NCBI GenBank assembly: GCA_947034895.1
Contig: OX344763.1
Coordinates: 75,721,093 to 75,785,092 of the forward strand
DNA from: Rhytidiadelphus loreus
Lineage: Eukaryota; Streptophyta; Bryopsida; Hypnales; Hylocomiaceae
Direction of reading: 5' to 3'
Length of the DNA: 64,000 nucleotides
Positions 4,806 through 63,279 of the stretch are shown in pieces; the first letter of the stretch is position 1, and the number at the start of each line of letters is the position of its first letter. The position numbers were made by a program, and so were the translations under genes. Under the pieces are notes generated by a model that saw only the letters and a list, made by a program, of their open reading frames with translations, was not told the DNA's origin and did no database searches.

Positions 4806-6282
4806 TTCAGACCGCGCGGTCTGAAGTGTTCCGGCGTCCCTGAAATGGCCCGGAGTTGTCGACGTAGAAATTTCTGAGAACATTAGGTAAAATACTTTCA
4901 GACCGCGCGGTCTGAAGTGAATTCTTGATGCAATTTCCTCTAAATGTCGGACGAATTCTAGACCTACCCAACTTCATATCAATCAAGTTGAAGTAGTTTC
5001 AGACCACGCGGTCTGAAGTAATGAACAGTCCCCAAAATGACCTGGACTAATTGGAGATCGACTTTGTCAAGTTAGTATATATACAGGTTCAGACCGCGCG
5101 GTCTGAAGTGATGCAAGGCTCCGAAAATGTCCTGGACAAACTGCTGATCAAATTATGTCATGTTATTCTAGATATAGGATCAGACCGCGCGGTCAAAAGT
5201 GATAAAACGTCTACAGAATGTTAAGGACGAATTGCTGATCAAATTAGTCCATGTTGCTCTAGATACTGGTTCAGACCGCGCGGTCTGAATTGGTCCCCTG
5301 GCCATAAAATAGATGGGAACGGTCCGTTTAGACCGAGCGGCCAGAAGATTTCCTCAGTGGTAAATGCGATCATGTCATGTTGTCAAGACTGATCCATTAC
5401 CGACGCCTCTAATTATGTAGACCCATTGCCATGGGGTCTGCACTATATCAATGGGCACATCTGAGTAATAACCGAATGTTGGTAGATTCAGACCGTGCGG
5501 TCTAAACCATACCCAAATATGCATCTCGAATAGAAGGCCTCTCCATGTTCATCTAATCACGCACCATGAATGAGCAATACACATGGATCACTCAGCCTCC
5601 TAGAAACCTAACACTTTTAGTATTGTAGGATCGATTCAAGAGTGATTGGATACAAAGTAAAAAGAACTAGACGCCACGATGACTGGTAGCATTGTGCAGA
5701 GCCTCCAAAGGAGTAAATCAGACCGCGCGGTCAGATCCTCGACGGATGACGAATAAAGGACCACCAATCCCTGCCCAAGATAACAGAAGTAATGGTTGTC
5801 GACCCTGCGATCAGTATCTGTTAATTCTCGCCGCATACGTGGTAGACTAAGGAATGACAGGATCAGACCGCGCGGTCCGATCTAATAGATGAAGGACTGT
5901 TCCAGGTGATGGGCGAGACGACATTAATGTCGTTCGTAGGGTCCCTCAGCGAGGAGCATCGTCATCAGCCGAATAGAAAGGGAAGGCGTTTTAGACCGCG
6001 CGGTCAAAACCTCGAGCAGCAGTCATTGTAGAAATACCGTCATGCTAGCATGGTCTGTCTAGGCTATGAATCGTGTCCCTGGTTTAGACCGCGCGGTCAA
6101 AACCACGCCATGGACTCAATATAGCATGAAGGAGTATCGTCCTATCAAAAGTACGCTAGAATGCAATAGATTGTCAACGACCATAGGAAATGAATCCTCA
6201 ACTCGTTAGTGCATCGCATGACCACTGCATGCTGGGCGTGTAGCAATCTCCTGAGTCGTCCAATTTAGACCGCGCGGTCTGA
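4806..6282. repeat. Array of 13 A-type palindromes in the P1-A leader intron
   Basis: A 20-bp perfect dyad with core AGACCGCGCGGTCT recurs at 4806, 4897, 4998, 5088, 5179, 5270, about 5327, 5487, 5717, 5862, 5990, 6083 and 6263. Spacing is roughly 90 bp at first and irregular later. Several copies have changed the outer bases symmetrically (TTCA/TGAA, ATCA/TGAT, TTTA/CAAA), so only the central 12-14 bp are strongly kept. DNA between copies is not repeated, so this is not a simple tandem satellite and not a CRISPR array. The last copy ends 27 bp before the P1-A start codon. Three more lie in intron 1, three inside exon 3, and four near the downstream foldbacks. Clustered dyads beside a ParB-like gene suggest parS-like binding sites; RNA hairpins in an intron are the alternative. 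Confidence 0.85.
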
Positions 6283-6309
6283 TTTGAAGTACTGCTTGTG
6301 GACAGTGGC

Positions 6310-7992
6310 ATGGAGTCATTCCTGGAGAGCAGTCTGCCGCTTGCGGGCTACTTGAGGCCCATCTCGCCTGACCGAATCCACGAGTCCTGGAAGCTGCACA
6401 TCGAAAAGAAATTCCCCTTGGAGTTCGTCGCGTCCAAGTCATTGTGGACGATCGAACTGAATTTCCTGATGGGCTCCCCCATCTTCAATCTGGAGCTGGG
6501 ATTCACGAAGACGGGGGATCCCCGATGGAAATCCTTCTCCACTTTGGTACTCGTGAATGTCCATGTGATGAGGGAGGCCATTCTCGTCGACGTGGTCAAT
6601 GCTAGTTATAATGCATTCGGAGTCATCGCCATCCGTGTAGAAAATGAGATGACCTTCTGTAGCAAACGCCTCAAGAAGAATTACGCGTCCGTCCCTCGTG
6701 CATATCAACTCTTGATGGCCGAAACCCAATCGCACTACGAAGCCGTCTCTAGTGACTTCCACGAGACCGGAAAGGTAGCCAACTCGTACGTCGCCAAAGC
6801 GTTTGCCATTCACAACAAATCACTGAGTGTGTCGCCCTTGAACGTCTGCCAGGGTGAAGGAAGTCGACCAATGGCTTTGCCAGAGGGGTCCGCCAAGAAT
6901 GTCGCCAAGGCGTCGGGAGTGGGAACGCGCAGCTGGCCCCCCCCTGCGTCGGCCCTTGCTGGAGCGTCTGAGCGTACCGACCCACTCCCACTGGCGCGTG
7001 GACCCATCCAACGACCGCCACAGGTGACTCAGTCGGCGGGCCGAGCCACCACAGCGCCGACTTCTCGGTCTAAACAGAAGGCCGTGAAACGGAAGTCAGC
7101 GGGCCCGCCCGTGGCGACGCAAGCATCCTCGGAAGAAGATGCGGGGCGCTGGGTCCGGACGAGACGCGTGGCCGAGGAATCGCATGGCACCCCCAGCTCA
7201 TCGACCCACGAGGCCAACACGGAACCGGCAGAGGTGTCCGAGGAAGAGGCGCAGAAGATTGCGATCAAGAAGGTGAACGGGAAGTGGACCAAGAATCCAC
7301 GAACCCTGCCCTTCAATGCCGACGCCGTCCCGGCTAGCGTGTCCGTGCCCGCGGAGTACAAGCGCAATCCGCGACGCAGCGTCGAGTTGGAAACGCGGAC
7401 GCGCCTCAAGGCCGAAGCGGCGGCCAACAAGGTGTTCAAGGAACTGTCCTCGTACATGTACATATTCGGTCGGGGACAATACTTCGAGTTGGACGTGGCC
7501 GACATGGTGAATGCCCAGGAGGAGTCGGGAATCATCGTGAGGCCCCTCGAGAATGACGGCGTCTTGGCAGTCCTGGACAGGATGGTGAAGGTGAACTACG
7601 CCAAGCAAATCCTCACCGTCATGCCGGACACGCACACCAGACCGACATGCTGGGCGGATTGCTGGAAGGCGCGGCCGCTGCTCATCATCAACGGGCAGCA
7701 CACCTAGATGGCCGCCAAGGACATCATCTCCGGGAACACTACTGTCGACGATGAGAAGGTCGTCGCCAAAATGCACAGGTGGACGTGCGAAATCGTGTGG
7801 TCCCAGAACAAGGACCACCTCCACGCGTTGTCCTCCAAGTGCAACGACGGAAACGTCGCGGGCCCGTACCTATCGTCCCTATCGGCAACACTCATGCATG
7901 TTCGCCACCTCTGGGAAAACGCGGGCAAGCCTGCGCAACATCGGAAGAACGCGAAGGTCATCATTGAAGGGGAGGACCCGAAGGTCTATGAG
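6310..7992 (+). CDS. P1-A exon 1: N-terminal domain plus ParB/Srx-like domain
   Basis: 561 codons. The first ATG in the frame (6310) begins MESFLES, matching MEDQLES in copy B and MENQIEN in copy C, which supports the start. Residues 1-190 form a globular domain shared with B and C. Residues about 195-345 are Pro/Ser/Lys-rich and unlike the other copies. Residues about 380-560 are the ParB-like region, with the GQHT signature at 462-465 corresponding to GQHN in B and C. ParB/sulfiredoxin-fold proteins carry a comparable G-(N/Q)-H-R loop that binds nucleotide. A single in-frame TAG follows immediately (7705-7707), where B and C have Val; the frame then stays open to the splice donor GAG|GTACGC at 7993. 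Either a recent nonsense mutation or readthrough. GC-rich, unlike B and C. ParB assignment comes from motif and context, not from a search. Confidence 0.7.
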
Positions 7993-8250
7993 GTACGCAC
8001 GACTTCCCTACGCATTTCAGACCGTGCGGTCTGAATCCCAGTGATGCAATTCCGTCCCATTCCATATCGGTAGGCTCCCATTGTCCTTGTTACGCTCGTC
8101 ACCTTTCTGATTCATGGTCACTTCGGACCGCGCGGTCTGATCCCGCGATATTCCGACCGCGACGCCACTTGGTGTCGTGGATTGTTCGGGGACAGTTCAG
8201 ACCGCGCGGTCAGATCACGACACATACTCACCGCGTCGATGTGTGTCCAG
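7993..8250 (+). other. P1-A intron 1 carrying three A-type palindromes
   Basis: GTACGC donor at 7993 and TGTGTCCAG acceptor ending at 8250; both flanking exons are in phase 0. Dyads with the AGACCGCGCGGTCT core or one-base variants lie at 8016, 8122 and 8196. The intron at the homologous position of copy B (40358-40506) also carries one palindrome, of the B type. Copy C intron 1 has two degenerate C-type dyads. Confidence 0.7.
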
Positions 8251-9627
8251 GATTTCAAGGAGAAGGCGCACCAAAGCTTCGAGGCGGTGGGGAGCGCCAA
8301 GCACCGAAACGGGGGGGGGAGGACCTGGGACTTCGACAAGATGGGCGACCGGAAGATCGTCATGGCCTCGAATGCGACCTGGACCAGTTGGCAAGAGGTC
8401 TTCCAGAAGCACGAGTCCGGGGCGCTGCACGACATCGACACCGGCGTCCTGTTCAACCAAATTCCGGACGGGAAGGGGGGCTCCAAGATCTACAAGTTCA
8501 CGGCGATCAATCACAACCAGATGAAGAACCTTCTGGGGATGGATGACGCTGCCGTAGGCGAGCTCGCGAGCAGAATCCTGGAGAAGCCGCCCAAGGTCTA
8601 CCTGAAGAGGCCGACCAGTTGGACGGCGGCCATTCCCTTCGCCCAGTGGTGCACCAACAAGAAGCACAAGGCCGTGCTCATCTTCGAGATGAAGGAGAAG
8701 GCCGACGTCCTGGGCATCGACAAGGCCAAGGAGGTGATTTCCCAGGGGGAGGTCGTCCCTAAAGCCTGGCGGGAGTTCAAGGCGCTGCTGTGCATTCGGG
8801 GGCACAACATGTGGGCCGCCATGCACATTGGGCAGAAGTGGCTCAGGCACCAATGTGGCTCGGGGAAGAAAACGATGGTTGCTCCCTCGGACGTCGTCGC
8901 CATGATCCAGCGACTGCTCACCAACAACGAACGCTGCAACACCGTCAAGAAGTGTGCGCGGGCCACGGTCTGCCGGTGGGATTGCGTGAGGAGGGTGTTC
9001 GATCCCTTTGTCTACGTGAAGCAGATGCGCGAATGGGTGGAATACGTGGACGGACCCGCCAGCATTCGCTTCTGCGAGGTGGGGATTATGGATTTCCGCC
9101 TGTTCCCGGCGGTCGGGAATATGGAGATTCACTACGCGTACGAGAAAATCATCAAACAAGTCGCGCGGGTCTCCCAAAATACCATGGCCAAGGGGGTCCA
9201 CACGTGGATGCTCATCATGGGCGCCGAGAGGGTGGTGGCAGTGGAACAGGCGCTCGAGAAATTCTTCCCCGAGCATAACACTCGGCGCATCGCGACGTAC
9301 GTGTATTCCAAGGGCGAGCCGAACTATTATACCAGGGGGAAGGACAGGGTCATGTACATTCAGCGGACCACGAAGCATTTCACGAACTCCCCACTCGTCA
9401 ATGTCGGGGAACCGATTCCCCGACTCTCGGCTGCCGAGGACAAGCCTTTGGCGACGGATGACGTCAGGTACAAGACCCGGGAGCTCTGTCGCCACGATAA
9501 CCCCTGGATCTTGACGAATCGCGAACTGCGGTACGAAGTGTACCTCCGCTTCATCGACAAGTTCTGTAGGGACCAGGGAACGGTCATGCTCGTCTTTGCG
9601 GGATCCAAGCCCGTCTCCGCGTGCTCG
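8251..9627 (+). CDS. P1-A exon 2: central domain ending in a DNA-methylase-like motif
   Basis: 459 codons with no internal stop. It begins DFKEKAHQSF, aligning with EFEKAVYVRF in B and AFEKAMHKCF in C. Near the end, an N-x-ELR-(5-8)-I-x-KFC block is followed by VFAGSK (9592-9609) and then SACS at the splice site. B has PG..V..GFAGGK and C has PG..V..VFAGGK at the same place. This resembles the C-terminal part of beta-class N4/N6 DNA methylases (L-x2-LI-x3-C-x-PGD-x-VLDPFAGSGTT-x2-AA), but the Asp-Pro and second Gly are missing, so an active methylase is doubtful. Middle residues show no recognised motif. The exon ends SACS|GTAAGC. Intron 2 (9628-9734) follows and contains one degenerate A-type half site. 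Confidence 0.7.
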
Positions 9628-9734: not shown

Positions 9735-11897
9735 ATGTTGTGTCGGAGCTCCGTCTCCTTCGTGCACCCCACCGATAAGTGCCTCCTGCGCCAGAGCGTG
9801 CACGCTCGAATCGGTACACAGATGTGGCCCGACATCTTGGTGCCGCAGCCGCACACCCTCGACTTCATCTACGACCCCAAGTCTCAGACACGGAGGCTCC
9901 AGGACCCCGACCCCGTGGAGAGCGAGTCTTCGGATGATGAAAGAGAGGGCAAGGAGGAATCGCAAGAGGGCGCCCTCAACCTCCGCGATGGAAGCGACTC
10001 CGACTCGGAAGTGGAGAAGGAGAAGGACGAGGACGAGGACGAGGACGACGAGGACAAGGAAGAGGACAAGGACGACGAGGACAAGGACGAAGATGAAGAC
10101 GTCGACCGCGCGGGAGGGCGAGACGGCGAAGGCGACGATGTTTCAGACCACGGAGATGCCTCGGTGTCCGGCGTCCACTCTGTCCAGAGGGAGACGGATC
10201 AGACCGCGCGGCCTGATTCGACGCCAACCTCCCCGCGGAGCTCGAGTGCGCCTCCGCGCAGGAATCAGACCGCGCGGTCTGATATGCACCCGCACACTCC
10301 TCTCTCTCCCTCCAACCCCCCCTCTCCCTCCGCAAACCGACTACTGTCCCCTCCACCTCCACCTCCATCTCCTCGCACTCCCTCTGCTTCCCCCCGACCT
10401 GAAGATCCGGCCCTGCAGTCGGATCCCGTCACCCAATCTTCCAAGGATCGCCGCGCTCCAGTTCTGACCGCGCGGTCTGAAACACGGCCACATGTCTTCC
10501 GCGTTCCCACTCCCCGACCGCAGGCGGCTGCAGTGGAGGTGTCCACTCCTGCGGAGGAGTCTCTTCCGCCCCCTCCCCCGAGAATGCTCATTTAGGACCT
10601 GCAGGCTGATTTGGCTGCATTGCAGAGACTACTGTCTTCGGCCAGGCAGGCGGAGGTGGCGAGTGTGAGGACCAACCTCGCCGCCTCTCCCGCGAATCCC
10701 AGTGATGACTCCGTGGAATGTAGGATTCAGGCGTCGCAGGCGATTGTCCAGGAATTGAGGTCCATCCGCGATCCATCCGATCTCAATGGGGATGAGAACA
10801 TGATGAAGCTGATCGGTGCGCAGGTCAGCGTCGACATCCTGGAGTCGGAACTGCCTGCCGCCAGCGCAGGCGAGCTTCTGCTCATGGCCCATACGCGCGC
10901 CGTGTACCGGCAACTCGCCCTCAAGTCCACGAATACAAAGAGAAGCCCGATCGATCTGGACGATCTGGACGACGGAGACTTGGACAACCGACTGGCCTTG
11001 GCAGCAACCGGCAGAGACGAGTACAGCAAGATGGCCAAGGCCGCGGCGGAAGCGGCAACATTGGACGCGGGGACTTCCTCCGAGGCAGGAGGGACTCTGG
11101 CCGCGGTGGACATGGACGCCAAACCCATCCACATGGACGTCAAGGCAGGGATCAACCTCGCGTACGTGGAGATGATGCTCGAGCGGGAAAGGCAGAGGCA
11201 CTCGGGGGCGCTCGACAAGCGCAATGACGCCATCGACAACCTCGTGAGGGATTTAAGGGAGAAGGATCGGGAGCTCAAGAGGGAGAGGGAGGAGAGGGAG
11301 CGGGTGGAGGAGGAGAAGAAGGTGAAGCGGAAGGCCAAGAAGGCGTAGAAGGAGAAGGAACTCGCGGAGGAGTGAAGGCTGCAGGCCGAGAAGGAAATGG
11401 AGTACAGGAGGGATCGCGAGACGAACACTTTGTTGCTCAAGCAACTGCAGGAGCAGATTCTGGCGAAGCAGGCCGCGCAGACAAGTGCCCCTCCGATGGC
11501 TGCGACTCCCATTCCTGTGAGCGAGCTCCACAACGTCTCCGGAGTCTCCACCACGAATTCGATTTCCGCCGCCACGGCCACCGCAGCGTCCGGACTTCGA
11601 CAGCTGGGTTCAGGAGAGGCTGCAAATATTTCGGTGAGTGTCGTTGACGATCCAGACAGATTCGATGACCTAGCCCTCAGTCAATTTCCGTTTGTGCATG
11701 TCGCTGGGCCAGTGCATCGTCCGAGCATCCACGACGATGACCCTTACGACTTGGAAGTCGACTTGGGAGATATGGAGGTCTCCTTCACTAACTTGACCCA
11801 GCAGTATGCTCCCTTGCAGGCCCCAATCGCTCCGGCGCTGCCCTCTGCGAGGCACGAGGAGCATGCGCCAGTCGACTCACCCTCCGACGACGTCTAG
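9735..11897 (+). CDS. P1-A exon 3: acidic, Pro-rich and coiled-coil tail
   Basis: 721 codons after the acceptor CTGCAG at 9734. It starts with Met, as do exon 3 of B and C. Order: about 60 residues of globular sequence, a long Glu/Asp run (about 10015-10130), Ser/Pro-rich sequence (10200-10590), then a helical region ending in a charged coiled coil (about 11170-11460). In-frame stops are TAG 10593, TAG 11346 and TGA 11373; the frame and coiled-coil character continue through all three, and CAG or CGA would be the one-step precursors. Three A-type palindromes (10198, 10264, 10462) are read through in the single frame giving QTARSD-like peptides. A possible donor TCG|GTGAGT occurs at 11634, so the last 88 codons could be intron or coding. 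The tail probably mediates oligomerisation; that is inference. Confidence 0.6.
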
Positions 11898-12577: not shown

Positions 12578-12810
12578 GTGAGGCTCGATCTCCCTGCATC
12601 CCTCTGCTCACTGCCTCCGTAGCGCTTGCCTAGATAGTTTGTAGGGATCGGACGTGGATCTCGTTTAGAAAGAGGATGATAATGGACAAGGATTCACGTC
12701 TCTGTGTTCAAGCCTCCCACACCTGTTGGGGGGGGGCGCATTTTCAATTGTGGACTCCCGTTTATTCAATTTTCAAATACTACTTTGAACAAGGGATTTC
12801 GCATACGCAG

Positions 12811-13773
12811 GCCTCGTTGCCGTTGCCTGCGCCACCGCCTCCCGTTGCTTTGCCCTTGTACAGTTATTTTGTTGTCTTGGAGTTGGAAGGAGTCCTATGC
12901 CAAGTTGAGCACGTCGGGCCCCTCGGATCCGGTTGCTCGCCCGCAACAAGCGCACCATCGGAGGACGATTACGATCCGACGAAACGCCACGTCTTCGGCG
13001 AGTTCTCCCTCTCGTGTCGTCCGGAAGTGCGCGAATTCCTCAGAGGCCTGGCGAAGAGGTTTCGCTTGTCTATGTGGACGAGGCTGCCGGCCGTCGTGGC
13101 CAATCCCATGATCGATTTCCTCTTCCGCGGCTTGGAGCGCTCGTCCATGCGCGTGCTCACGCTCGAGGACTGCACCTCCATCGTGGAGAGACGATCGTGG
13201 CGGTTGTGCAGGTGTAGGCCCCCCCCACACCTCCCCTCGTTGCCTTGTCCGGCGCACCCCTACCAACCCGAGTGGGATACCGACGTGGACGAGGACACGT
13301 ACGTTCAGTTCCCCGACCATCCCGAGGGGAGGCTGAGGCTCAAGGTTTTGCACAAGGCCGTCTGGGATGGAGATAGGTTCAAATCCGGCACGTTCAGGGC
13401 CAATTCCAGCAACACACTGCTCATCGATTCCTCCCCCGAGAGCAGCATCCTCAATCCCATGCACAATGCCATCTTCCCGTTGTCGTACATTGGCAGCCCG
13501 CACGATTCCACCCTGGACAGGACGTTGCGACTCTATCTCAAGGGCCTGCTAGAGTCCGGTCTTAGCGTGTCACAGTACGTGTCTCGGAATCCGTTTTTCG
13601 GAAACCTCACGACGCCCTTTTTCAAACTCAATGTGCGCGGGTTAGCTACATTGCAGGACAGGTCTCTCTTGCTGGAGTATCCAGAGTTCGTCGGCACGTA
13701 CAGTAGAGACGGGAACGATCATTTCGTCTGTCGAAGAGCGAAGCACGTGGTGCAAAAGAAAGAAAAGGGTTGA
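12811..13773 (+). CDS. P2-A exon 2: FCP1/SCP-like HAD phosphatase homologue, catalytically degenerate
   Basis: 320 codons and a TGA stop. A Pro-rich start leads into FVVLELEGVLC, which aligns with VVLDLNGILC (B) and VILDLNDILC (C), and with motif I of FCP1/SCP phosphatases (LVLDLDETL). The nucleophile Asp is Glu here and the second Asp is also Glu. A CRPEVREFL...RLSMWTR block matches the RPG..EFL...VWTA region of the family, and NTLLIDSSP matches the conserved NxIIxDNSP motif. An acidic insert (about 13270-13330) separates them. The fold is therefore likely kept while the standard Asp-based chemistry is lost; a binding or pseudo-enzyme role, perhaps with RNA polymerase II CTD-like peptides, is inference. 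It follows P1 in the same orientation, as in B and C. Confidence 0.65.
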   Translation, partial: ASLPLPAPPPPVALPLYSYFVVLELEGVLCQVEHVGPLGSGCSPATSAPSEDDYDPTKRHVFGEFSLSCRPEVREFLRGLAKRFRLSMWTRLPAVVANPMIDFLFRGLERSSMRVLTLEDCTSIVERRSWRLCRCRPPPHLPSLPCPAHPYQPEWDTDVDEDTYVQFPDHPEGRLRLKVLHKAVWDGDRFKSGTFRANSSNTLLIDSSPESSILNPMHNAIFPLSYIGSPHDSTLDRTLRLYLKGLLESGLSVSQYVSRNPFFGNLTTPFFKLNVRGLATLQDRSLLLEYPEFVGTYSRDGNDHFVCRRAKHVVQKKEKG

Positions 13774-14155: not shown

Positions 14156-14715
14156 ATACTCTGTTGCTCCTCTTTTCCCACTCTAAACTTTGTCTTTCCG
14201 AAGCTCGTCCAGAAAATCGCAATCACGTTTGCACGGTCGTGACCATTGTCTTCGTTGTGCAGGATCCCTCCGGGCAGTCACCTCCCCAAGTGGCCGACGC
14301 GACGAAGGTTGGAGTGTCAGCGCCTGCAGTTCAGACCGCGCGGTCTGAACCGTAGGCAGCATCCTCAACTCGTCTGCGAAGGTTACGACGGAAGGCTGCA
14401 CAGTCGCGTTCCAAGTCCAAAGTCCGGTCTACCCTTCATTGCTTTTAGTAATAGCTCCACACTAACATTGCTGAACGTGGACTCATGGTGAGCCACGGAT
14501 GACTTTCCCATACAACATAAATGACATTTACAGATGCATCTCATTAGAGATATTTTAGAAACATTTTCAAAATTTTAGAAACATTTTCAGTTCATCATTC
14601 TTGTCAACAATATACTGTTTCCCACATTGGATAGACTAATACAAATACCCGCATTTTTTTAACACAAGTCCCCGATCCCATAGAGCGTGGTTCCCTTCGT
14701 CGTAACATCATTTCA

Positions 14716-15700
14716 CCAACGCCAGTAGGCATCTATTTGCCGATCATATCGTCTGGGTGGTCGTTGTAGGGCACCTTGAGAAGGTCCGGAAAATATTCGT
14801 CCATTGTAGTGCTGACCAATTCGAACGTGCTGGATGGATCGTTGTTGAACTCGTCTCTTGTGTGGAGCGGATGCGCCTTGCGTTCACGGGACTTCCAAGA
14901 GCAACCATCGTTGGAGGTACACCAAGAGAGCCACCGTCATGCGTCCCCCTCCGCCACATCCTCGCGTTCTCCGTGGGCTTCGACCGCAGCCGGTCTACCA
15001 TTGCCGGGATGGGGACTGCCATGGACAGGGTGCCTATCAACGCACTTGTTGGCTGCTCACAATGCCCTCGAGTGAGAGTGGAGCAATGATATCCAACTCT
15101 GTTCATTCCTCGGAAAATGCACAGGAGCATGTGTTCGATGATTGCGCATTGTTGGATATGAGTGTTCCAATCTCACTTGAAGGCATTTGTTATCAGCAGC
15201 CAACAGGTGCGTTGATATGCACCTTTCACGGCAGTCCCCATCCCGGCAATGGTAGACCGGCTGCGGTCGAAGCCCACGGAGAACGCGAGGATGTGGCGGA
15301 GGGAGACGACGGTCGCACGGATGGGGTGCCCTTGAACGGTTGGAGGAGGGCGTTCATGACAACGCCTCCCCTAGTTGTGCACTGGAAGTCTTGTGAACAC
15401 AAGACGTACTCCGCTAGGCGGTGGGTTCCGGGATGTGAAGAGGACGTTCTTGACGTGACCGTGGATGGGGTATCCATGTCCTTGCCTCTTCTCATTACAA
15501 GAGCGGGTTCAGTAATGATCCATCCGGCAAAGGGACGACACCAGCATGGGTCCGCACTACAGTGGACGAGCATTTGACCGCGAACCTCGGAGTGCCGTGC
15601 GAGGACCTCACGATGATGTGATCGGCGAATAGACTCTTGCTGGTGTTGATCAAGCTGGAGAGTCATCACGAAGAGACGATGGTTGGAGCATCGGTGCCTG
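14716..15700. repeat. Long foldback (inverted repeat) unit 1
   Basis: The left arm begins with CACCAACGCCAGTAGGCATC. The right arm ends with the mirrored GCGAATAGACTCTTGCTGGT at about 15640. Near the centre, GGTCTACCATTGCCGGGATG (about 14992) is mirrored at about 15239-15258, with a loop around 15105-15150. A transcript would fold into a long imperfect hairpin. No protein frame is convincing. The same unit recurs at 16130, about 17155 (partial) and, more diverged, at 17936 and 19370. Confidence 0.7.
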
Positions 15701-16129
15701 TAGTTCAAACCGCGCGGTCTGAACTGTGGGCAGCATCATCAGCTTGCACGCGGAGAACTCGGTAGGCATTGCTCCTTGCGCTCACGGGAATTGGATGCGC
15801 CTTGCGTCATCACGAGGCGACGGAGGTTGGAACGTCGGCGCCTGCGGTTCAGACCGCGCGGTCTGAAACGTGGGCAACATCCTCAACTCGTCTGCGAAGG
15901 TCACATTGACATTGCTGAACATTGCTACAACATAAATGACATTTACAGATGCATCTCATTTATTAGAGAATTGTAGAGACATTTTCAGTTCATTCTTGTC
16001 AACAATATACTCATTCCCACATTGGATACACTAATACAAATATTCTCACTTTTTTAACACGAGTCCCCGACCCCGTAGAGTAGGCTTCTGTACATCGTAG
16101 CACGCAGATGAAAGGTCCTCGCAACATCA

Positions 16130-17040: not shown

Positions 17041-17154
17041 ACGATGGTTGGAGCGTCGGCGCCTGCAGTTTAGACCGTGCGGTCTGAACCGTGGGCAGCA
17101 TCATCAGCTCGCACGTGGAGAACTCGGAAGGCATTGCTCCTTGCGTTCACAGGA

Positions 17155-43149: not shown

Positions 43150-43255
43150 CCTAGTTCCTCCTCATTTCTCGCCCTCTTTCAGTTGCTCCGCATCTGGCTG
43201 ATAGTGAGAGAAAGTGTGGTGAGTTAGGGTTACGGCGATAGGAGAGGTGAGACGG

Positions 43256-51721: not shown

Positions 51722-52964
51722 CATGTCAATTTTCCTCCAGCAAACACCGAGAGCACACTCGACCCGGGATGGCAAAACATCTGCACTACCCAAAGATAGA
51801 ATTCCATCCTAAGCTCCATGTTATACATGCAAAATGGAAGCTCATTATACTTTCTTGCATCTCTATGTACAGTGGTATTAGGAGCTACAAACTCTGCTTG
51901 TATTTTGGCCTTCATATTGTTGTTTGGACTCTAAAGGAATATCAAAAGCACTTTCTTCAACACCTTGGCGCTGTTTGCGGGCAAGTCCATCAATCTCTCA
52001 TTTTTGGCCGGATAGTAGTCGGCAAAATTCAAGCTAAAGGTTTTGAGGACCTCATTTTTCTCCACGTATGCCAACACTTGTCTCTGATCTACTTCGTCAG
52101 AACAAATAAATAGCCAGGACTTGATATCTTCAAGTAGAGGACTCTTCTCATTCTGCATGGAGGTGAGGACTACGTTGAAGAAAGAATTCTCGATATTGGA
52201 CTTCTCTTTCTTTAAGGCCCCTAGAATACTTCTGAAGTCAATGACGCCTAGTATTATCTGGTTTCGGGTCTCCGCGTTCCATGAAATTTGTGGCCAGTTG
52301 GACCACTTGTTGTCGGCAATGCTATAGGGCCTCATATATGCAATCCCAATTTGCGTTTTAAAGTTTTTTTCCTCTGCAGGAAAACCTTGAAGAACTATGC
52401 CGCTCGTGGTGATATCTGCTCCGCAAACTTGTTTTTGGCCCTAAGTTGCTTTCTTGTTCCAAAGAATTTATCCCCGGGCCTCTCTATGAGGTGATTCATT
52501 GTCGCACTTGTAATGCAGTGAATTTGCTTGAATTCCCTCCAGTTTGCAACAATGAATTCACCATTCGCGCTGAATAATCCAAGGTCAAGGTCAATTTTGT
52601 AGAGTGCTCTTTTCACTAGCTACTTCCGTTTGCGCCTTTCGACCCACTCCTTTGTATTGTAGCAACTGTCAAGCACCAAAGTTGTAGTCTTGATAGTCAC
52701 CTTTGGATATGCAATAGTGCACTTGGGTCCGGATTGGTTGAGGATGTGTTTTGCCAGCTTCTCGAGGTGATTGTAGTTGAGATTTCTGAGAGGCTTAAAG
52801 AAGTTGCGGCTAAGGGTGCAGCTCTCTTGTTTCTAGTTCTCTTTCTCGTTGAACTTCATAAACGTATTAAGATCAAAGAGCTCCCAATGTACAGCATTCA
52901 GAATGACTTCGCTCCACAAATTGTAAACTTCGTCCGGTGCGGTTATAATTTTGAGTTCGTTGAT
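51722..52964 (-). pseudogene. P1-C exon 2, main part
   Basis: Resumes after the 2.5-kb insertion with INELKIITAPDEVYNLWSEV and follows P1-B through AKHILNQSG, YPKVTIK, LDSCYNTKEWVERRK and LGVIDFR to ELRMEFYLWVVQMFC and the methylase-like VFAGGK (51740-51757). The four in-frame stops (about 52830, 52619, 52393 and 51933) are all TAG. They face Trp, His, Glu and Gln in P1-B. One frameshift lies near 52350-52385. The Gln position (KVLLIFL-stop-SP versus KVLFMFLQCP) directly fits CAG-to-TAG. Confidence 0.6.
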
Positions 52965-55492
52965 CAACGACGCTAGTTTGTGAGCATAAAAGCATGAGCT
53001 TAGGAGCTGTGAGCATACATTTTGTGAGCCTAGAGCATCAATTGAAAAAAACTTGAAATTTTTGAAGCTAACAAAGAAAAAATGAAGACATTTCAAAATT
53101 TTGATTTTGATTTTTATCCCTATGACCGTGGACCTATGACCGTGGGGCCTTGCTGGCATATGTACCGTGCTTGGCTTGGCACGTTGACAGACAACAACTT
53201 TAATCCACCTCGAGGCCTATTTTTGTTCTTCTTGTGAAAATATTTGTTCATGGTCAAGCTTTGAAAAAATTCCAAGGGAAAACAAATATTTTGGACAATT
53301 GATAGAGGCTCATGTAGTAAACACCATCTCGTAAAAATGAATTTTTTTTTAGAATGTCTTACCCCCCAAACCTCCAAAGGGACTTCTTAGTGCCTAAAGT
53401 TTTTTTTGGAAGTGATGGGGTTGTGACACGTTCACACATTCAAAAAGAAAATTTGAAAATTATAAAAAAGAAAGTGCTTTCAAAGTCCCCTCCTCCAAAA
53501 TTTGCAAGACGATTCTTGAGATGGCGAAGTTGTGGAAACAAACAAATAATAGATTTTTTTTAGTTTTTAATTTTTAATTTTGAGAGTACAAAACTGTAGA
53601 TTCTATAAGGAGTCCTTCGGTAACAAAATAGGGTTTTAAGGTGTTACAAAGTTGTGATAAGGAAAAAATAAATAAAAGTAAAATCTTTTAATTATTCTTT
53701 TTTTTAAGAGTCCCAAACCCAAAACCCCACAAGGGATTTATTAATACTGAAAGGGATATCTAGGGGTGATTAAGTTGTAGAAAAAATACAATAAAAAAAC
53801 ACTTGAGAGTCCTAAAGTTTCAACTCCACAAGAGGTCTCTTTGAACCAAGAAGGGTTTCTTGGGGTGACAGTCCCAAAAAGAAAACTTAAGAGAAAAAGA
53901 TTTTTTTTTTTTTCTAAATTTAATTTTTTTTTAAATGAAAGTCCCCAATCCCCAAACCTTGGCAGGGGTCTCTCGTTACCGAGAGGTTTTTTATGAGATG
54001 ACAAAGTCGCAAAAAAAAAATTTGAAAAAAAAAAAAAAAAAAAAAAATTTTTTTTTTTTTTTTAATTGAAAGTCTCAAACCCCCAAATCCAGCCAAGGGT
54101 CTCTCTATACCGAGAGGTTTTCTTGAGGTGGCAAAGTTGCCAAAAAAATTGAAAAAAAATAAAAATTTGGTTGAAAAATCCAAACTCCAAACCTTGCTAA
54201 GGGTCTCTCTGTACCGAGAGGGTTTTTTGGGGGGTGATGAAGTCACAAAAGAAATTCAATCATTTTCAATAATTTTAAAAAATCTCTTTTTTTATTATTT
54301 TCCCCTGAGATTCCCAATCCCCAAACTCCGCAAGGGGTTTCTTGGTACCAAGAGACCCTTGACAGGGTTTGAAGTTTGGAACTTTCAACCCAAAATGAGT
54401 ATTTTTTTGTTTTGTTTTTAATTTTTTGTTGCGATTTTGTTACCCTCCAAAACCCCTCTCGGTACAGAGACGTCTAGTAGGGTTTGGGATTTGGGACTTC
54501 CAACCAAAATTTAAAAATTAAATTTTTAAAAAAAAATTTATTTCTTAAATTCAACTTTGTCACCTCAAAAAAAAACTCTCGATATAGAGAGACGCCTTGT
54601 GGATTTGGGAGTTTGGGACTTTTATAAAAAAACAAAACAAAAACAAATCAACACTTTTTTTTTAATTTTTTAATTTTTTTGCAACTTTCAGAAGTTTGGA
54701 GTTTGGGACTTTCAACAAGTAAAATAAATAAAAAATAAAAAGTAATTATTATTTAATTTGAGGGTTACAAACCCTAACACACGCAAAAGATATCTCGGTA
54801 CCAAAAGGGGTATGAGGGTGCCAAAGTTGGAGAAAAATTAATTATTATATATATATTTTTTATTATTTTAAATTCTTTTTTGAGAGTGTCAAATCTGAAA
54901 GTCTCCAATAGTTCCTTCGGTACCAAGATAAGTTTGTAGAAGTAATGAAGTCAGAAAAAAATTGAAAATATTTTTGAAAAAAAAATAGAAAAAAAATGTT
55001 TTTTTTAATTTTTTTGAGTCCCACACTATAAAATCCCTGAGGGATCTCTCGGTACCGAGAGGGGTTTCTAGATGTGACAAAGTCATGGAAAAAAAATTTG
55101 AAAAAATAAAAATAAAAATTTTGAGAGCTTCAAATCCAAAGGACCACTAGATATCAAGAGGGGTTTCTAGGGTGATGGAGTTGTGAAATAATAATATTAG
55201 TATTAATAAAAATAATAGATTTTTTTTTTTTAAATTTGAATTTTTTGAAAGTTCCAAATCCTTGCCCTTTCAAAAAATCTCTTAATATATATAATATTCC
55301 TTGTTGTATTTTGTTATCAAGAATTTTCCATTTCCATAATTTTTTTCAAAATCAGCCTCCAAAACACCCTCATTCTAATCCACGGTAATAGGTCCTAATC
55401 CAAAAAATTCCCTTCCAAAAATTCTAAAATCGGAGGCTCATAAGCTCACAGCTCTTGGGCTCCTGCTCCAAGGCTCATAAAATAGCACCCCC
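52965..55492. mobile_element. 2.5-kb MULE-like TIR element inserted in P1-C exon 2
   Basis: Flanked by an exact 10-bp duplication GTTCGTTGAT (52955-52964 and 55493-55502). Its ends are imperfect inverted repeats of about 50 bp; both contain GCTA(G/T)TTT(G/A)TGAGC and GAGCTGTGAGC. The interior has no gene. It is a series of roughly 110-130 bp repeats with CTCTC(G/T)GTACCGAGAGG and AAAGT(T/C)GCAAAAAA, present in both orientations with a turn near 54340, plus long A and T runs. TIRs with 9-11 bp duplications are typical of Mutator-like elements; assignment beyond that is inference. Confidence 0.7.
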
Positions 55493-55600: not shown

Positions 55601-55785
55601 CTTGCATGAAGTTTAGCACTTGAGAATCAAATGTCAAGTTTTAAAGAAGACTAAAATGTAGTAAAAAACAATTACAAAGCAGAAAGCAATTGAGCAATTT
55701 AGCTCTAATGGACCTGACTTGTACACCTAATTACAATGCAAAAAACAATCAAGCAATTCAGCTCTTTGGGACTTGATCTACACAC

Positions 55786-56388
55786 CCTGAATTTTGTTGT
55801 CTCTTGCATTGATTCTCTAGTCCTTTTTTCAATTTGCACTGTCCCCATTGCAACGGCCTCTTTTGGATTCTTTGGACTCCCCATCTTCACCCACACTATT
55901 CGAGCTCTGAGAATGTTTGTTGCCCATGATGGTTGGATCGCTTGGAAGTGATTAGTGCGGTTATAGTAAGCCGAAATTGACCGCAACTGCTCAACATTAT
56001 CAGACCAGACAATGAAGCAATTCCACTTCTCAAATTGCTCGCTAGTGTCTCTGTCAATTCTGCTTTCTTCATCCAACATCAACCTACTCGCCGCAACGTT
56101 GTGTTGACCATTGATGATGTAGAATTGACCATCTGCAATGTCTTCCCACCTCTTCGGCTTTTGCACTTGATTAACGGGCATGGCACAGAGGGTTTGCTTA
56201 GCACTCTTGTCAGGAATGTTGACAAGCCAATTCATCAAGTCCCTCACCATTTTGTCTTCAAGTACCCGTATGTTGAACTCTGGTAGTGCTTGAATGAGTT
56301 GCTTTAGTGGAAGTTCTTTCTTCACATCAACAGGAAGAACGTACGCGCTTGAGCATGTTTCCCAATACCTTCGGTACACCGCACTAAC
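55786..56388 (-). pseudogene. P1-C exon 1, second part: ParB/Srx-like domain
   Basis: An open frame of 201 codons from the MULE junction (VSAVYRRYWETC) to TTCAGG|GTGTGT at 55785. It has INGQHNVAASR (GQHN at 56098-56109), then FEKWNCFIVW, YYNRTNHF, PSWATNILRARIVWVKMGSPKNP, nearly block-for-block the same as P1-B. No stop in this part. ParB-type signature as in B; copy A has GQHT. Separated from its first part by the 4.6-kb element. Confidence 0.65.
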
Positions 56389-59300
56389 AGGGTTGACGAA
56401 TTGCAACGTCCAGGGCAAAATCACGTCCATTTTTCAGACGTCCAAACGTCCAGATTTTCCAGACGCGCGGACAATGTGGACGGCGTCCATCGGACGGCAC
56501 CCATTGGATGTTTAGACGATGCAGACGGGCGGTCAGCGCGGACAAGCGAACGGCCATCGCGGACGGGTGGACGGTGCGGTCGGCGCGGATGGCCATCATA
56601 GACGGGCGGACGACACGGTCGGCGCGGACGACCATCGCAGATAGGCAGTCGGTGCAGTCGGCGATGACGGGCGGACGGCCATCGCAGACGGGCAGGCCGG
56701 GCGGTCGACGCGGACGGCCATTACGGACAGGCGGACGACGCTATCTGCGCAGACGGCCATCGCGGATAGGTAGTCGGTGCAGTCGGCGCGGAGGGGCGGA
56801 CAGCCATCGCAGACGAGCGGACGGTGCAATCGACGCGGACGGGCGGACGGCCCGACCAGAGTAAAATGTCATAAAACATGATTTTTAGACCTCTTTTACA
56901 CATAATAAAATGTCTTTTTTCAAAAAACTTTGAACTACAAAAAGGTTGGAAATGAAGCTAAGTTTTTCCTCCAAGAATCCTTTTCAAGTTTGACCTTCCA
57001 ACAAAAAATTATGAACCATTTTCTAAGGCTGTATTTGAAAATGGCCAAAGAAATGTTGTCTTCTCCTCCAACCCCTGTCCATCCATCTTACCACCTAATT
57101 GACGCTCCGAGTCTCCAATCCGCCATCCACCTTTCCGATCTGCCGTTTGCTGGGTGTAAGTATGCTAGACCTTATACTTTTTCAAGTCACAAAGCAATTT
57201 TTTAGGACATGACTTTGTGCTTGTTATTATTTGAATTTAAAAGCTTGTCTTGTATGTTTTCTTTGTTTTTCTAGACATTATACATGTGAAGATCCTATAG
57301 GCTTTATTGATTTCTTTGAATAACTAAGTTCAGAGTGAGAAATTTGTACTTTTTGGATTGTTAGTAAAGAATCACATGGTACTAATTAAAATAAAAGTAT
57401 AAATATCTTGATCATATAGAGTTGAAGTGCTAGGGTTTTTTGGAGAAAAAATAAGGAAGGGCAATGTTTTGGAATCTATTTTCAATTTAATATTTACAAT
57501 CCATATTTGGCAAAATCTTAGAAATAAATTAGTTTTGATTTGCAACGAATATATGGTGGAAAAATAAACTTTTTTCCATTTGATTGAAGATTCTGAATGG
57601 CTGCAACTAGTTTTCGAATGGCATCAAGTCAAATAAAGAAAAATATCAATTCTTCATCAAACATATTGTGGTGCTTTTTTGTACAAAGACTACTCTTAAT
57701 ACATTTTTTATTTTTTGTGGAGGAATATTTCATATGTGCATGGCTTTGGATCTTAGTGACATGTTTGGTAAACCCCCTATATACTTAATGATTGATCTAC
57801 AACAATTAATTCCTCCCTCACAATCACTCACTAGTCACAAACATCAATCCTAAATCCAAGTACACAAAGCACAATTCAATGCTCTAAGTTCTCATAAGTA
57901 CAATGGAGCATTCCCGAAAATGCATGGGTCTAACGTACATACGCCCCGCCCTTCTGACCCACCATCCGCCCTTCTGACCCGTTGTCTGTTCCTTAGACCC
58001 GCCGTCCGGCCTTCTAACTATCCGTCCGACCCTCTGCCGACCGCAGTAAAATGTTTTAAAATATGATTTTTAGACCTCTTTTACGCATAGTAAAATGTCT
58101 TTTTTCAAAAAACTTTGAACTACAAAAACGTTGAAAATGAAGCCAAGTTTCACCTCCATGAATCCGTTTTAAGTTTCAACCTTTCAACAGAAAGTTATAG
58201 ACCATTTTCTAAGGCTGTTTTTGATAATGGCCAAAAAAACGTTGTCTTCTACTCCTCTCCTCCGACCCCCGTTTGCCATCTAACCACTCATCCGCCTATT
58301 GTACCCTCCATCCAGCTGTATTGTATTAATGAATTTTTAAAAGTACAGATTCGCTTTTCAAGGCTTCTATTTAATACTACAAAGTAAAAACATCCTATAT
58401 AGCATTTATGTATACAAAGGAAGGATAATCCAAGTTAAACTTTCACACATTGAAATATGCACTATAATTGTTATACCCTAAATCCTAAATCTTAAACCCT
58501 AAATCCTAGACCCTAGACCCTAAACCTTGAATTTCACATTAGTGAACAAACACATTGCTTTAATGTGCAAAATATGTTTGACTTCTAATTCCCTTAAAAT
58601 GTGATTATCATGATGTACTACATATGGATTTTTGCATAGTTCATAAGCTTATTCATATATGTTGTCAACATGTTCTTGGTATTTTCTACATCAATTATGA
58701 TGTGCCAATTTACAAATGTCAAACATACAATTATAATTTAGAGAAGTATCTTAGTATCTTTACAAATATTAGACATCATCTCAAAAAATAGTCTTTTAAC
58801 TTTCCCCAAAAAATTCAATACTACTATTAATATAAATTAACAAAACCGAAGAAATTAGTACAAATAGAAATATAAATGTATACCACAGACTTATAACCAA
58901 AGAATTGCAGAAACACTATAAAATAATGCATTTACAAATGATTTTATAGAAAACTCCGTAATTTAAAACCTTGAAGAATACAATATTGATTGGATTGAAA
59001 GACAAAAAACTATATAGTTTGACTTTTAGTAATATATATAATTAACCAAGCATGCTAGATCTCCCACAATATAATTGCAAGAAAATCTCTTGTCTAATTA
59101 AATAATGATCAATTCAATCTTCTTAAGTAAAAATAAGGAACCCAAAAGTGTTGAAGGGATCATATAAGGGGCCATCATGTTCGACAAAGGTCGGTTATGT
59201 TTTAATCTATTCAAGCACCAATATTTTTCATATAAGATATATAGTTGACAATTTACAATTTATAGGTATAACGGTGTAGGAAAACAACTTCAATAATATT

Positions 59301-60997
59301 TTTGTTGTATAAATGCAATATTTAATCTTGAACAACATTAAATTACATTAAAATATTTAAAGCATTTTTTGTAGCATCTTGTAATACAATTATAAAATAA
59401 TATAATTGCTTGTACTATGTATACTTTGATGTTTCAAACTATTAATGCATTTTACAACAAAACTTAAAGAAAAAAAACTTCAAATTACAATTGTATGTTT
59501 GACATTTGTAAATTGGCACATCATAATTGATGTAGAAAATACCAAGAACATGTTGACAACATATATGAATAAGCTTATGAACTATGCAAAAATCCATATG
59601 TAGTACATCATGATAATCACATTTTAAAGGAATTAGAAGTCAAACATTTTTGCACATTAAAGCAATGTGTTTGTTCACTAATGTGAAATTCAAGGTTTAG
59701 GGTCTAGGGTCTAGGATTTAGGGTTAAAGATTTAGGGTTTAGGATATAATAATTATAGTGCATATTTCAATGTGTAAAAGTTTAACTTGGATTATCCTTC
59801 CTTTGTATACATAAATGCTATATAGGATGTTTTTACTTTGTAGTATTAAATAGAAGCCTTGAAAAGCGAATCTGTACTTTTTAAAATTCATTAATACAAT
59901 ACAACTGGATGGAGGGTACAATAGGCGGACGAGTGGTTAGATGGCAAACAGGGGGTCGGAGGAGAGGAGTAGAAGAAAACGTTTTTTTGGCCATTATCAA
60001 AAACAACCTTAGAAAATGGTGTATAACTTTTTGCTGGAAGGTTGAAACTTGAAACGGATTGTTGGAGGTGAAACTTGGCTTCATTTTCAACCTTTTTGTA
60101 GTTCAAAGTTTTTTGAAAAAAGACATTTTACTATGCGTAAAAGAGGTCTAAAAATCATGTTTTAAGACATTTTACTGCGGTCGGCAGAGAGTCGGACGGG
60201 CCGTCGGAAGGACAGACGGCTGGTCAGAGGAGCGGACGGTAATTTTTTGGTCATTTTCAAAAACAACCTTAGAAAATGTTTCATAACTTTTTTTTGGAAG
60301 GTTGAAATTGGAAATGGATTCCTGGAGGTAAAACTTGGCTTCATTTCCAACGTTTTTGTAGTTCAAAGTTTTTTGGAAAAAGACATTTTACTATGCGTAA
60401 AAGTGATCTGAAAATCATGTTTTATGTCATTTTACTGCAATCGGATGGAGGACTAAGAAGATTGCAATCTTTGGAGATGTCCCATAGTTGGAGTTTTTGT
60501 CCAAATTGAATGTATTATATACGATTGGAAAGCTATGAATGATATCTTTCCAATGGTATCTTATGGTGCACATGAATGTAGATAGAGCGTCCGGTGGTCA
60601 GGCGTTTGGCTAGATGAGCGAATGGTATTGATTCATTTGTTTTGCCGTCCTTCTGCACCGACTGCAAAGCCGACCTCATGGCCGTCCACATGGCCAGTCG
60701 ACCGTGTGGCCGTTCGCCGTGTCGATTTCATGGCCGTCCGCCCAGCTGACCGCATGTGCGTTAGTCCGTCAAAAATCCCGGTCAGCCCATCCGCTCTCCG
60801 CTATCTGTCGAAAGTTTCGGTTGGCCCGTCCGCGATCTGCTCGTCCGCTCAATGCCGTCGGAAGTTTTGGCCGTCCACCCATCCAACGGTCGGACGATAG
60901 TCACCGCCAAGTATATCAAAAGACGTCCTGGAGTCAGCGCCTGTAGACTTTGGACGTCCGGTCATCCAACGTCACGCCCGGACGCCCTATCAACCCT
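56389..60997. mobile_element. 4.6-kb MULE-like element inserted in P1-C exon 1
   Basis: Starts AGGGTTGACGAATTGCAACG and ends CCCTATCAACCCT, giving a short terminal inverted match AGGGTTGA/TCAACCCT. CCGCACTAAC (56379-56388) and CCACACTAAC (60998-61007) form a 10-bp target duplication with one difference; joining them restores the P1-C reading (KPNYKVVS-x-VYRRYWETC versus KPDYKLVSEAYKCFW in B). GC-rich subterminal repeats of GGACGGCCATCGC type (56500-56860) and GTCCG/GGCCGTCC type (60640-60990) lie inside each end. The interior has a large inverted repeat: 58020-58740 is mirrored by 59500-60430. No transposase, so non-autonomous; related to 24331-26395. Confidence 0.75.
58020..60430. repeat. 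Large inverted repeat within the 4.6-kb element
   Basis: The block AGTAAAATGT...CCCTAAA-like run...AATTTACAAATGTCAAACAT on the plus strand (58045-58735) returns on the minus strand between 60430 and 59495; the minus arm extends further to about 59090 and matches 24960-26395 of the other copy. Short frames in the arms are repeat artefacts. The loop (58740-59090) is AT-rich and unrelated. Confidence 0.7.
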
Positions 60998-61007
60998 CCA
61001 CACTAAC

Positions 61008-61839
61008 GACCTTGTAATTTGGTTTCCGCTCGATATTTAATGCCTGTGGAACATTAAACATCATGTCCGCTTAGCTCAACTCTCCTTGTCCAAATTGTTC
61101 TGATGTCCAGTCTATATGCTTTTTGGCAGACGTTGACGCTAGGGGATTCCCTCATGCTCTATGTGTTAGTGGAGTTTTTTGTTCCTTGTACCTCGACCTT
61201 GTGATCCAGCCCCTTGGTTCCCTATGGAGAGTTGACTTCACGCTTGGCTTGCTATTTCCATTGAGATTGTGCGAGAAGCCATGAAAGACTTTTGCATGGT
61301 GTGCTTTTCCTTAAGGACCTCGAAGGAGTTGAACAACAATCGTAATTTTGCACATAGTCTCTTCCCAATTAGCGGTGATCCATCCTAATTGCAATAATAC
61401 CCTTCGTCCACCTTCTTCTCTAGTTGTTTAATTTCATTGCTATATGGGGTGGGCTCCAAATTCTTGAGAAGGGGCATCATGTTGAAGGTGATTTTGTCAG
61501 AGTTTACAAGAATGATGAAGTGATATTGTTCAGTGCTTGGCACCCCGTCTTTGTTGTGACACATCGTATCAGAATAAACGGATAAATATTGTGGATGGCG
61601 TCCTTCACTCTCTTGTCAAACAAGATTGGAATATAAATTTGAGCGTTTGTGTACTTCATATTAAAGTGGAAGTAGTCCGTGAGGGGAATCATTGTCAGAC
61701 CCTAAGATTCCACTTGCTTAGGGTCCTTGAACTCCCAGTAATCTCCATCGTTCATCATCTCATCTTCGTCATCGACTTCAAGAGCCTTGGTTGTGCTCTT
61801 TTTGAAGTAGGCGTTTAGATTTTCAATTTGGTTCTCCAT
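61008..61839 (-). pseudogene. P1-C exon 1, first part: N-terminal domain
   Basis: ATG 61839 after TTTTGTAGC, a likely leader-intron acceptor. MENQIENLNAYF and YWEFKDPKQVES match P1-B. TAG at 61702-61704 is at the same alignment position as TAG 39044 in P1-B. It then follows P1-B (MIPLTDYFHFNMKYTNAQIYI, PLIGKRLCAKLR). Further TAG, TGA and TAA codons and a frame change in the linker (61060-61430) show decay. The KLRLLFN reading gives the ancestral Arg where P1-B has TGA. It stops at the target duplication of the 4.6-kb element after KPNYKVVS. Confidence 0.6.
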
Positions 61840-61973
61840 GCTACAAAATAAATAGAAATTACAGTTTATTTTACTAACCATCTATGAACATGCTTTTGTT
61901 TTGATAGATTTATTGAGCTTTGTTGAAGGGAGTTTTTAATTACAACCTATTTTTTTCTAGAGAATATTTACGT

Positions 61974-63279
61974 GTGCAATTTAGGTGGGTGCAACCTGAA
62001 TTACTCGCTTAGGACATGTTGTTGAATTGTTTTTTCTCTTGTCTATTTATGAATAAATTATCAATTGAATGTGAGTTGTTAGAGTCTTTGTATGTGGTTT
62101 CTATTAGAGGTGTCCTCTAGTCTATGAAGAATGAGTATTATATTATTGCAACTGATATTTTTTTGTGCATATTAGGTCTTTACTACCTGAATTGCACACT
62201 AGCTATGTGACCCTTATTGTGATCTTTTTTGCTATGGCTTTTTTTTTTTTTTTTAGGCAATTGCTACATAGTTTATATTGTAAATGTATTTATTGAATAG
62301 CGCTTTTCTATGCTTGTGAAGTTTAGGTTGATGCCACCTGAATTACCGAAGGCTTGAAACCTTTTTGTGGTGCTCCTTCATTTATCCTCGTTATTTTTTT
62401 AATAAAAATGCTAGAGTGTAGTTTGTACTACTCACTCGAGACCTAATGATTGTTAGTTTTTTCTCTTGTTTATTAATGAATAAATGAACAATTAATGTGG
62501 GTCGTTAGAGTCTTTGTATGTGGTTGCTATTGGATGTGTCCTCTAATCTGTGACGGATGAGCATGAAATTATTGCAATTGATATTTTATGCTATGCATAT
62601 TAGGTCTATGCTACCTAAATTGCACAATGCCACCTAAACGTTGTATTGATTATTTGAGCACAATTAAGGATTCCAGACTAACAGTGTGATTTCTAATGGA
62701 CTCCATAAATCCTTACGTGAGAGACCATATAGAAGGAAGAATGGGTCTTGACAATTTAGAGATCAACTAATATCACCCAATCAAAATTATGAGTCGGATT
62801 ATTGATATCATGCAAATCAGGTAGGGATGACCTAAATTGCACAGTGGCCCTTACTGTTTCCAACTTTTCTATGATTCAATGTTTCGTCTTTTCATATTTG
62901 TGATTTATTATGTTTCTTTGTTGTCAATATTAACGATCTATTGTACTTGTGCAATTCAGGTGGCATAAGCTTGAATTACACATGGGATGAATATTGTTGT
63001 TGACTGCTTCTATTATCTTAAATATATTAATAGAAATTTGCTAGAGTTTATATTTTCTGCAGTTTAGATTGAATAGACTTGAACTTCACAAGGGAACTTA
63101 TTACTTGGATTTTACAAGACAACTTGTAACGCATGCGTGTTTTGTTCAGGTGGCAGCAACCTGAATGACACAAAGGAGGAAAATTGTTGTACTGCTACTT
63201 TTGTTTTCTATATGATTTTTTCTAACAATTCCTAGAATATAGATTGTGCAATTCAGGTCGAGCAGACTTGATTTGCACA
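61974..63279. repeat. Array of nine C-type palindromes upstream of P1-C
   Basis: Interrupted dyads of form GTGCAATTCAGGT, 5-8 bp spacer, ACCTGAATTGCAC occur at 61974, 62165, 62316, 62594, 62811, 62949, 63058, 63144 and 63245. Arms vary between copies (AATTTAGG, TATTAGG, AATTCAGG) but remain complementary. Intervening DNA is unique and AT-rich. The first lies 135 bp upstream of the P1-C start, in the same position relative to P1 as the A- and B-type arrays. Two more are in P1-C intron 2 and two degenerate ones in intron 1. Confidence 0.85.

Follow-up and report, generated by a model that had tools for sequence, protein, structure and literature searches.

The question raised by the stretch of 64,000 nucleotides that is analysed here, from the moss Rhytidiadelphus loreus (GCA_947034895.1, contig OX344763.1, positions 75,721,093 to 75,785,092; hereafter the window), is why modules containing a ParB-like gene, P1, and an FCP1-like gene, P2, are accompanied by clustered palindromes, called dyads below, which differ in type from one module to another. 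Wider comparisons were made over the window plus 100 kb on each side (264 kb) or over 280 kb, and dyads were also searched for in the genome (407 Mb in 489 contigs). Our answer is that the modules, called A, B and C, represent copies of large moss DNA transposons with terminal inverted repeats, and that we are dealing with a mobile element that carries its own dyads is nearly certain. As to what the dyads do, we propose that together with the P1-P2 protein they constitute a self-recognising, putative anti-silencing system, an explanation which, taken as a whole, could about equally well turn out right or wrong.

It is noted first that the clustered dyads reported in the initial annotation are real and that each module has its own type, with counts far above expectation. 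In the window, the A dyad, TCAGACCGCGCGGTCTGA, occurs 22 times when up to 3 mismatches are allowed, versus 0.01 expected, and the B dyad, TCAGCTCGASTCGAGCTGA, has 13 places versus 0.00 expected; the C dyad, GTGCAATTYAGGT-N7-ACCTRAATTGCAC, has 13 places at 47.4-63.95 kb versus 1 at equal score in the other 47.4 kb, and with a stricter score all 11 places in the 264 kb fall in module C. An unbiased palindrome scan recovered the dyad families, lumped into one cluster, and additionally picked up an array (28.77-29.06 kb) together with several groups that were smaller or of low complexity; the palindromes are 18-33 bp long. It had been annotated that the palindrome differs in each copy, and the families are indeed distinct, but they are in-register variants of one half-site rather than unrelated palindromes. 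Read toward the centre, the half-sites are ..CGGTTCAGACCGC in A, TGCAnATCAGCTCGA in B, TGTGCAATTCAGGTnGn in C and CAnATTCAGCTCGA in two further loci, L001 and L002, that are discussed below, and with P values uncorrected they match in register at 10/12 positions for B and C (P 4e-5), 9/12 for B and L (P 4e-4), 8/12 for C and L (P 0.003), 7/11 for A and C (P 0.008), and 7/12 both for A and B and for A and L (P 0.014). From these comparisons the families seem to have diverged from a single site, with TCAG kept and the core variable, the likeness being weak for A. Among six tandem units, which had been chosen by their dyads, 15 of the 18 dyad columns are invariant versus a mean column identity of 65%, and this is tandem amplification with the dyads retained and the spacers diverged.

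The dyads had been described as lying upstream of P1, where they are clustered; others are found within introns 1 and 2 of P1 and in the gap between P1 and P2. In module A, 12 dyads (4807-6282, with a 91-bp tandem repeat at 4998-5289) precede P1-A exon 1 (6310-7992, + strand), which encodes the ParB-like domain, 3 lie in intron 1 (8017-8214) before exon 2 (8251-9627, +), 3 lie at 10199-10480 within exon 3 (9737-11897, +), which encodes low-complexity sequence and a coiled coil, and 4 lie in the 3' part of the element (14331-17087), beyond P2-A (12634-13773, +) with its FCP1/NIF-like domain (PF03031, E 7.7e-11). In module B, 3 dyads (38432-38865) precede P1-B exon 1 (38906-40357, +), and single dyads lie in intron 1 (40448-40466) before exon 2 (40507-41853, +), in intron 2 (41945-41963) before exon 3 (42015-42835, +), and, beyond an inserted element, before the truncated P2-B (46498-46516 and 47099-47398, +, respectively). 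In module C, 9 dyads (61974-63278) precede P1-C exon 1, whose N-terminal part is at 61011-61839 (-) and ParB-like part at 55789-56406 (-), 2 degenerate ones lie in intron 1 (55692-55783), and 2 lie in intron 2 (51582-51699), between the main part of exon 2 (51712-52985, -) and the FCP1-like P2-C (49240-50002, -). The distances from the arrays to the P1 starts were re-read as 27 bp in A, ~40 bp in B (annotated as 37) and ~134 bp in C (annotated as 135). Moreover, six B dyads (32736-33460) precede the DUF7869 gene at 32.57-30.55 kb (30550-32568, -; PF25273, E 1.6e-42), which adjoins module B and which the initial annotation had left unlinked, and A dyads likewise precede the DUF7869 gene in both A copies.

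With the exon limits partly read by eye, the dyads within a module are non-coding in 16 of 19 cases in A (P 1e-5), in 6/6 at up to 4 mismatches in B (P 0.002, the inserted element being counted as coding), and in 8/8 both in L001 (P 5e-6) and in L002 (P 6e-5). In a further B-type module, at 75.1-83.8 kb, the 3 B dyads present (3/3) occupy the intron 1, intron 2 and P1-P2 gap positions. That the dyads track the module, and are not spread apart from P1, holds over 280 kb and on spacing. Over the 280 kb all 69 A dyads lie inside the two A elements (36 + 33), and in the genome 818 exact A dyads are found versus 0 for the reversed pattern. The first 50 places listed are all on contig C1, and for 48 of them the listing contains a further place at a distance of up to 35 kb. 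Of the 36 neighbour spacings, 20 match an element spacing within 2 bp, with 19.5% expected.

The mobility of the module, which had been suggested before, is evident from the inverted repeats, target duplications and second copy of the A element. With tblastn over 100 kb per side, a second A set was found, with (in window coordinates) a DUF7869 gene at 138618-141240 (-), P1 at 155709-159024 and P2 at 162033-163172, and the DUF7869 gene of copy 1 was located at -10896 to -8274 (-), before P1-A. The two copies align from -11898 to 21628 versus 137616 to 172274, the match being made up of four long blocks, 98.3-98.9% identical and 33.5 kb in total, with a divergent stretch at ~3.9-5.0 kb; the elements measure ~33.5 and ~34.7 kb, and positions 1-21628 of the window are the right part of copy 1, whose left end is ~11.9 kb before the window. 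The terminal inverted repeat is identical at 31/31 bp at both ends of both copies (the right end of copy 1 being at 21598-21628, -), and the 4-bp target duplications, GAAT/GAAT for copy 1 and TCAT/TCAT for copy 2, are at different sites. For the B and C elements ends were not found. The DUF7869 gene, which is inside both A copies and adjoins B, is divergent from P1-P2; one source labels its relative P0087 a transposase, and it is presumed to be the transposase of the element. Only DUF7869 and NIF pass the curated cut-off, among the matches with a cut-off shown.

P1 has the ParB/Srx fold, as structure prediction and fold comparison show, and the finding set beforehand as speaking against the initial annotation, a P1 lacking this fold, did not occur. 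The ParB block is predicted with a pLDDT of 82-96 over residues 281-410, its best three Foldseek matches have a probability of 1.00, and its best 30 VIA rows are ParB, Noc, KorB, PadC, SerK, SbnI, Srx or Atu1540. The catalytic motif of sulfiredoxin is GCHR; P1 shares with this enzyme the fold and the His of the GxH motif, and differs from it in having Gln at the position of the catalytic Cys in 104 of 106 sequences. Further along, a methyltransferase-like segment of 43 columns is matched with probability 65 and score 42.9 (probability 54 in another run), whereas 40 shuffles scored no higher than 19.4 and the reversed sequence 13.9; the corresponding Pfam match is below its cut-off (best E 0.0038), and a beta-class N6/N4 methyltransferase is not among the families matched by 24 annotated relatives. 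The DPPY and FxGxG motifs of beta-class N6/N4 DNA methyltransferases were not found in P1, where FxGxG is replaced by AGSK, AGGK, AGTK or GGGK and a DFRxxP-like sequence stands at what we read as the likely DPPY place. The P1-P2 product is read as a multidomain protein with a weak PH-like domain, a ParB-CTPase fold, a degenerate methyltransferase-like segment, a coiled coil and an FCP1-like domain.

P1 and P2 had been annotated as separate partners, but they are probably one gene, for the FCP1 domain is fused in relatives: it is present in 13 of 24 P1 relatives in a precomputed listing and in 18 of 24 at the loose limit of E up to 10. P2 resembles the FCP1/SCP (NIF) C-terminal-domain phosphatases in matching PF03031 above the cut-off (L002 with 53.8 bits versus 21.8; A and C also pass) and in the DDSP motif of P0003 and P0011. 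The catalytic motif of FCP1/NIF enzymes is DxDx(T/V); this position reads DLNG in P0003, P0011 and L002 and ELEG in A, DDSP varies to DNSP in C, DDSA in L002 and DSSP in A, and, by contrast with these phosphatases, the domain is fused to a transposon protein. From these motifs the FCP1-like domain is probably non-catalytic.

All 24 P1 relatives are from Physcomitrium patens or Ceratodon purpureus, with many of the Ceratodon ones carrying the gene tags UG or VG, which are taken as sex chromosomes. A contig scan with the moss P1 alignment gave, from 82 pattern matches, the loci L001 and L002, neither of which was picked for its dyads. These loci, found by P1 homology only, carry 8 B-type dyads each at the predicted places, namely in GT-AG introns or the P1-P2 gap, the first three of L001 being apparently placed in an intron that follows a very short first exon. 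L001 and L002 are filed in a cyanobacterial (Synechococcales) bin, AVDCRST_MAG81, a likely contamination that is worth flagging to the database. Since they have GT-AG introns and P1 matches of 31-44%, we infer that they and P0146 are moss contamination. The AVDCRST_MAG81 record has 11 exact dyads, all on the L001 and L002 contigs, which, in a bin that is for the most part of non-moss origin, says little about genome-wide spread. We considered and rejected the possibility that the window is bacterial or viral, as the organism-named relatives are all mosses among the matches listed (120 of 290); a counter-example is P0146, filed under uncultured Leptolyngbya among the matches listed (120 of 131).

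Based on these data, we propose that the P1-P2 protein would recognise the dyads of its own element as a dimer, with the many sites per copy providing specificity, and that through its FCP1-like and coiled-coil parts it would counteract DNA methylation and silencing so that the genes of the element stay open and transcribed, a role like that of the VANC proteins on VANDAL transposons of Arabidopsis. Dyads and protein would diversify by element type, each type serving itself alone. Binding of P1 to the dyads is a prediction that we consider fairly probable, while anti-silencing as the putative outcome is put forward more tentatively. A longer version of the proposal, which we think unlikely to hold in all its parts, is that a land-plant DNA transposon acquired a ParB-methyltransferase fusion of the phage type, which turned to dyad-directed anti-silencing: P1 would load at parS-like sites in promoters and introns, spread over or bridge the 34 kb, and tether the transcription machinery by its FCP1-like pseudo-phosphatase, with repeated specificity splits giving mutually blind systems in one genome.

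Several observations weigh against this proposal. Three A dyads are in coding sequence, in exon 3, and a B-type dyad (50544-50562) lies inside module C, between P1-C and P2-C. The 818 genome-wide A dyads were counted without assignment to P1 copies, and at a tolerance of 12 bp the spacing test is weak (29/36 versus 61% expected). Between the two A copies the dyads diverge by 2.7%, other non-coding DNA by 2.57% and coding sequence by 1.33%, so that in these two copies recent selection on single dyads, as lower divergence than in non-coding DNA, is not shown. In A copy 1, P1 exon 1 is interrupted by one in-frame stop and exon 2 by none; at the corresponding places copy 2 has 7 and 9, and because of these its P1 looks dead. 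A helix-turn-helix (HTH) domain was not identified in P1, the only candidate being a match to HTH_Tnp_Mu_2 below threshold (E 0.069) in exon 2 of L001, and exon 2 gave no usable fold. With Box II placed on P1 by our own reading, its arginine is absent, NGQH being followed by Ser in 94, Asn in 10, Ile in 1 and Thr in 1 of the 106 sequences; a ParB-fold survey describes this arginine as needed for nucleotide binding in ParB relatives (PMC12704722), and nucleotide-driven clamping in the ParB style is therefore doubtful for P1. Finally, dyad type does not follow overall P1 similarity. The simple co-divergence of P1 and dyads that had been supposed is not supported, for L002 has the B dyad yet its exon 1 is about as similar to C (38%) as to B (36%), and B and C, at 53.5% identity in exon 1, have different dyads; a small number of residues, and not divergence overall, would have to set the specificity.

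Other explanations of the dyads were weighed. They might be ordinary promoter or enhancer sequences, bound by a transcription factor of the host or serving simple autoregulation by P1, without anti-silencing, which would suit their position before both genes and in introns; it is rather unlikely, as the site differs by element type in one genome and the confinement of all 69 A sites to A elements tells against a host factor, which would be expected to have sites elsewhere. Less probable still, they might be internal binding sites of the DUF7869 transposase for a transposition complex, with P1-P2 doing something else. Many transposases bind repeated sites, and the dyads are indeed part of the element and are found before the DUF7869 gene, but between the outermost dyads of A copy 1 and its ends there are ~3.9 kb and ~4.5 kb, which places them outside the inverted repeats, and dyads stand before genes and in introns, in L001 and L002 too. 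We consider it very improbable that the dyads act as RNA hairpins, for splicing control or as sources of small RNA: many are intronic and strongly self-complementary, but they also precede genes on opposite strands and occur in A exon 3. That they are parS-like sites for partition or retention, as the initial annotation had suggested, would suit the ParB fold and the clustering of 18-33 bp palindromes but is hardly credible: the sites occupy promoters and introns, the A element is a chromosomal transposon bounded by inverted repeats and target duplications, and the protein is without the Box-II arginine; ParA was not searched for.

The self-recognising system that we prefer has its nearest functional parallel in VANDAL and VANC, whose sites occupy introns and upstream regions, are tandemly repeated and are not the same from family to family (PMC5735166, PMC10398659). 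Both have a DNA transposon, an accessory protein (inferred for the moss), motifs clustered in the introns and upstream regions of the element itself, differing by family and sitting in tandem repeats. By contrast, the moss element has a presumed DUF7869 transposase, a 4-bp target duplication, 18-33-bp palindromes where VANC motifs are short and arrayed in one orientation, and a protein that combines the ParB fold with an FCP1-like domain. Its components do not look like those of a VANDAL, although VANA and VANC were not among the proteins compared directly. With the ParB-CTPase fold proteins, including phage ParB-N6_N4 methyltransferase fusions, P1 shares the fold, nearby palindromes, association with mobile elements and, possibly, the order of ParB fold and then methyltransferase-like segment (PMC12704722); it differs in being eukaryotic, intron-bearing and within a terminal-inverted-repeat transposon, besides lacking the Box-II arginine and having degenerate methyltransferase motifs. 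According to the survey, Srx is the form met most often in eukaryotes, and no word beginning with plant, moss or transpos occurs in the main text of that paper (PMC12704722).

If the proposal is true, plants evolved sequence-specific anti-silencing at least 2 times, starting from unrelated proteins, the ParB fold has a function in eukaryotes beyond sulfiredoxin, and several orthogonal protein-site pairs in one moss permit a direct test of the evolution of DNA recognition. It might also help to explain the abundance of such large elements. Physcomitrium patens, which holds P1 relatives, is easy to transform.

As to the state of the copies, CAG is depleted and TAG and CAA are raised in the window, the pattern that CHG methylation would be expected to leave behind. 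In P1-B (38906-42835) 9 of the 10 in-frame stops are TAG, one TAG position being shared with copy C. A reading of TAG as glutamine was rejected, because the CAG depletion and TAG excess are present in non-coding DNA too; for the same reason decay by CHG methylation is the simpler cause of the TAG stops. Between the A copies, 522 of 740 substitutions are C/T or A/G, and this bias and the CAG loss are consistent with methylated, silenced copies.

The modules had been taken as three full-length copies. Gene order and intron positions are common to A, B and C, but only A is near full length: B is interrupted by an element at ~42.8-46.2 kb, with P2-B cut, and C is interrupted at ~53-55.5 kb and ~56.4-61 kb. 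The insert in B (42838-46205) is a probable retroelement, with a gag-like frame judged by eye; it shows no CAG depletion (1.07 versus 0.73 for the window) and is for this reason probably young. P1-C is split by a second repeat family (56384-60444), which is also present at 24326-26394 and whose members are up to 96.5% identical in direct and inverted orientation, with G+C-rich tandem blocks at its edge. More modules lie outside the window, and a fourth copy within it is represented by a relic of P1 exon 3 at 27.6-28.1 kb (27624-28136, +). Near this relic is a 38-bp palindromic tandem repeat (AATATGACT...AGTCATATT; 28769-29062), built of 24-bp palindromes, which may be a fourth dyad family, possibly linked to the fourth copy, or a piece of another transposon. 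Directly before the relic, at 27379-27492, two 56-nt arms form an almost perfect inverted repeat, separated by 2 nt; in its vicinity is a stretch (27220-27295) that is related to 45948-46022.

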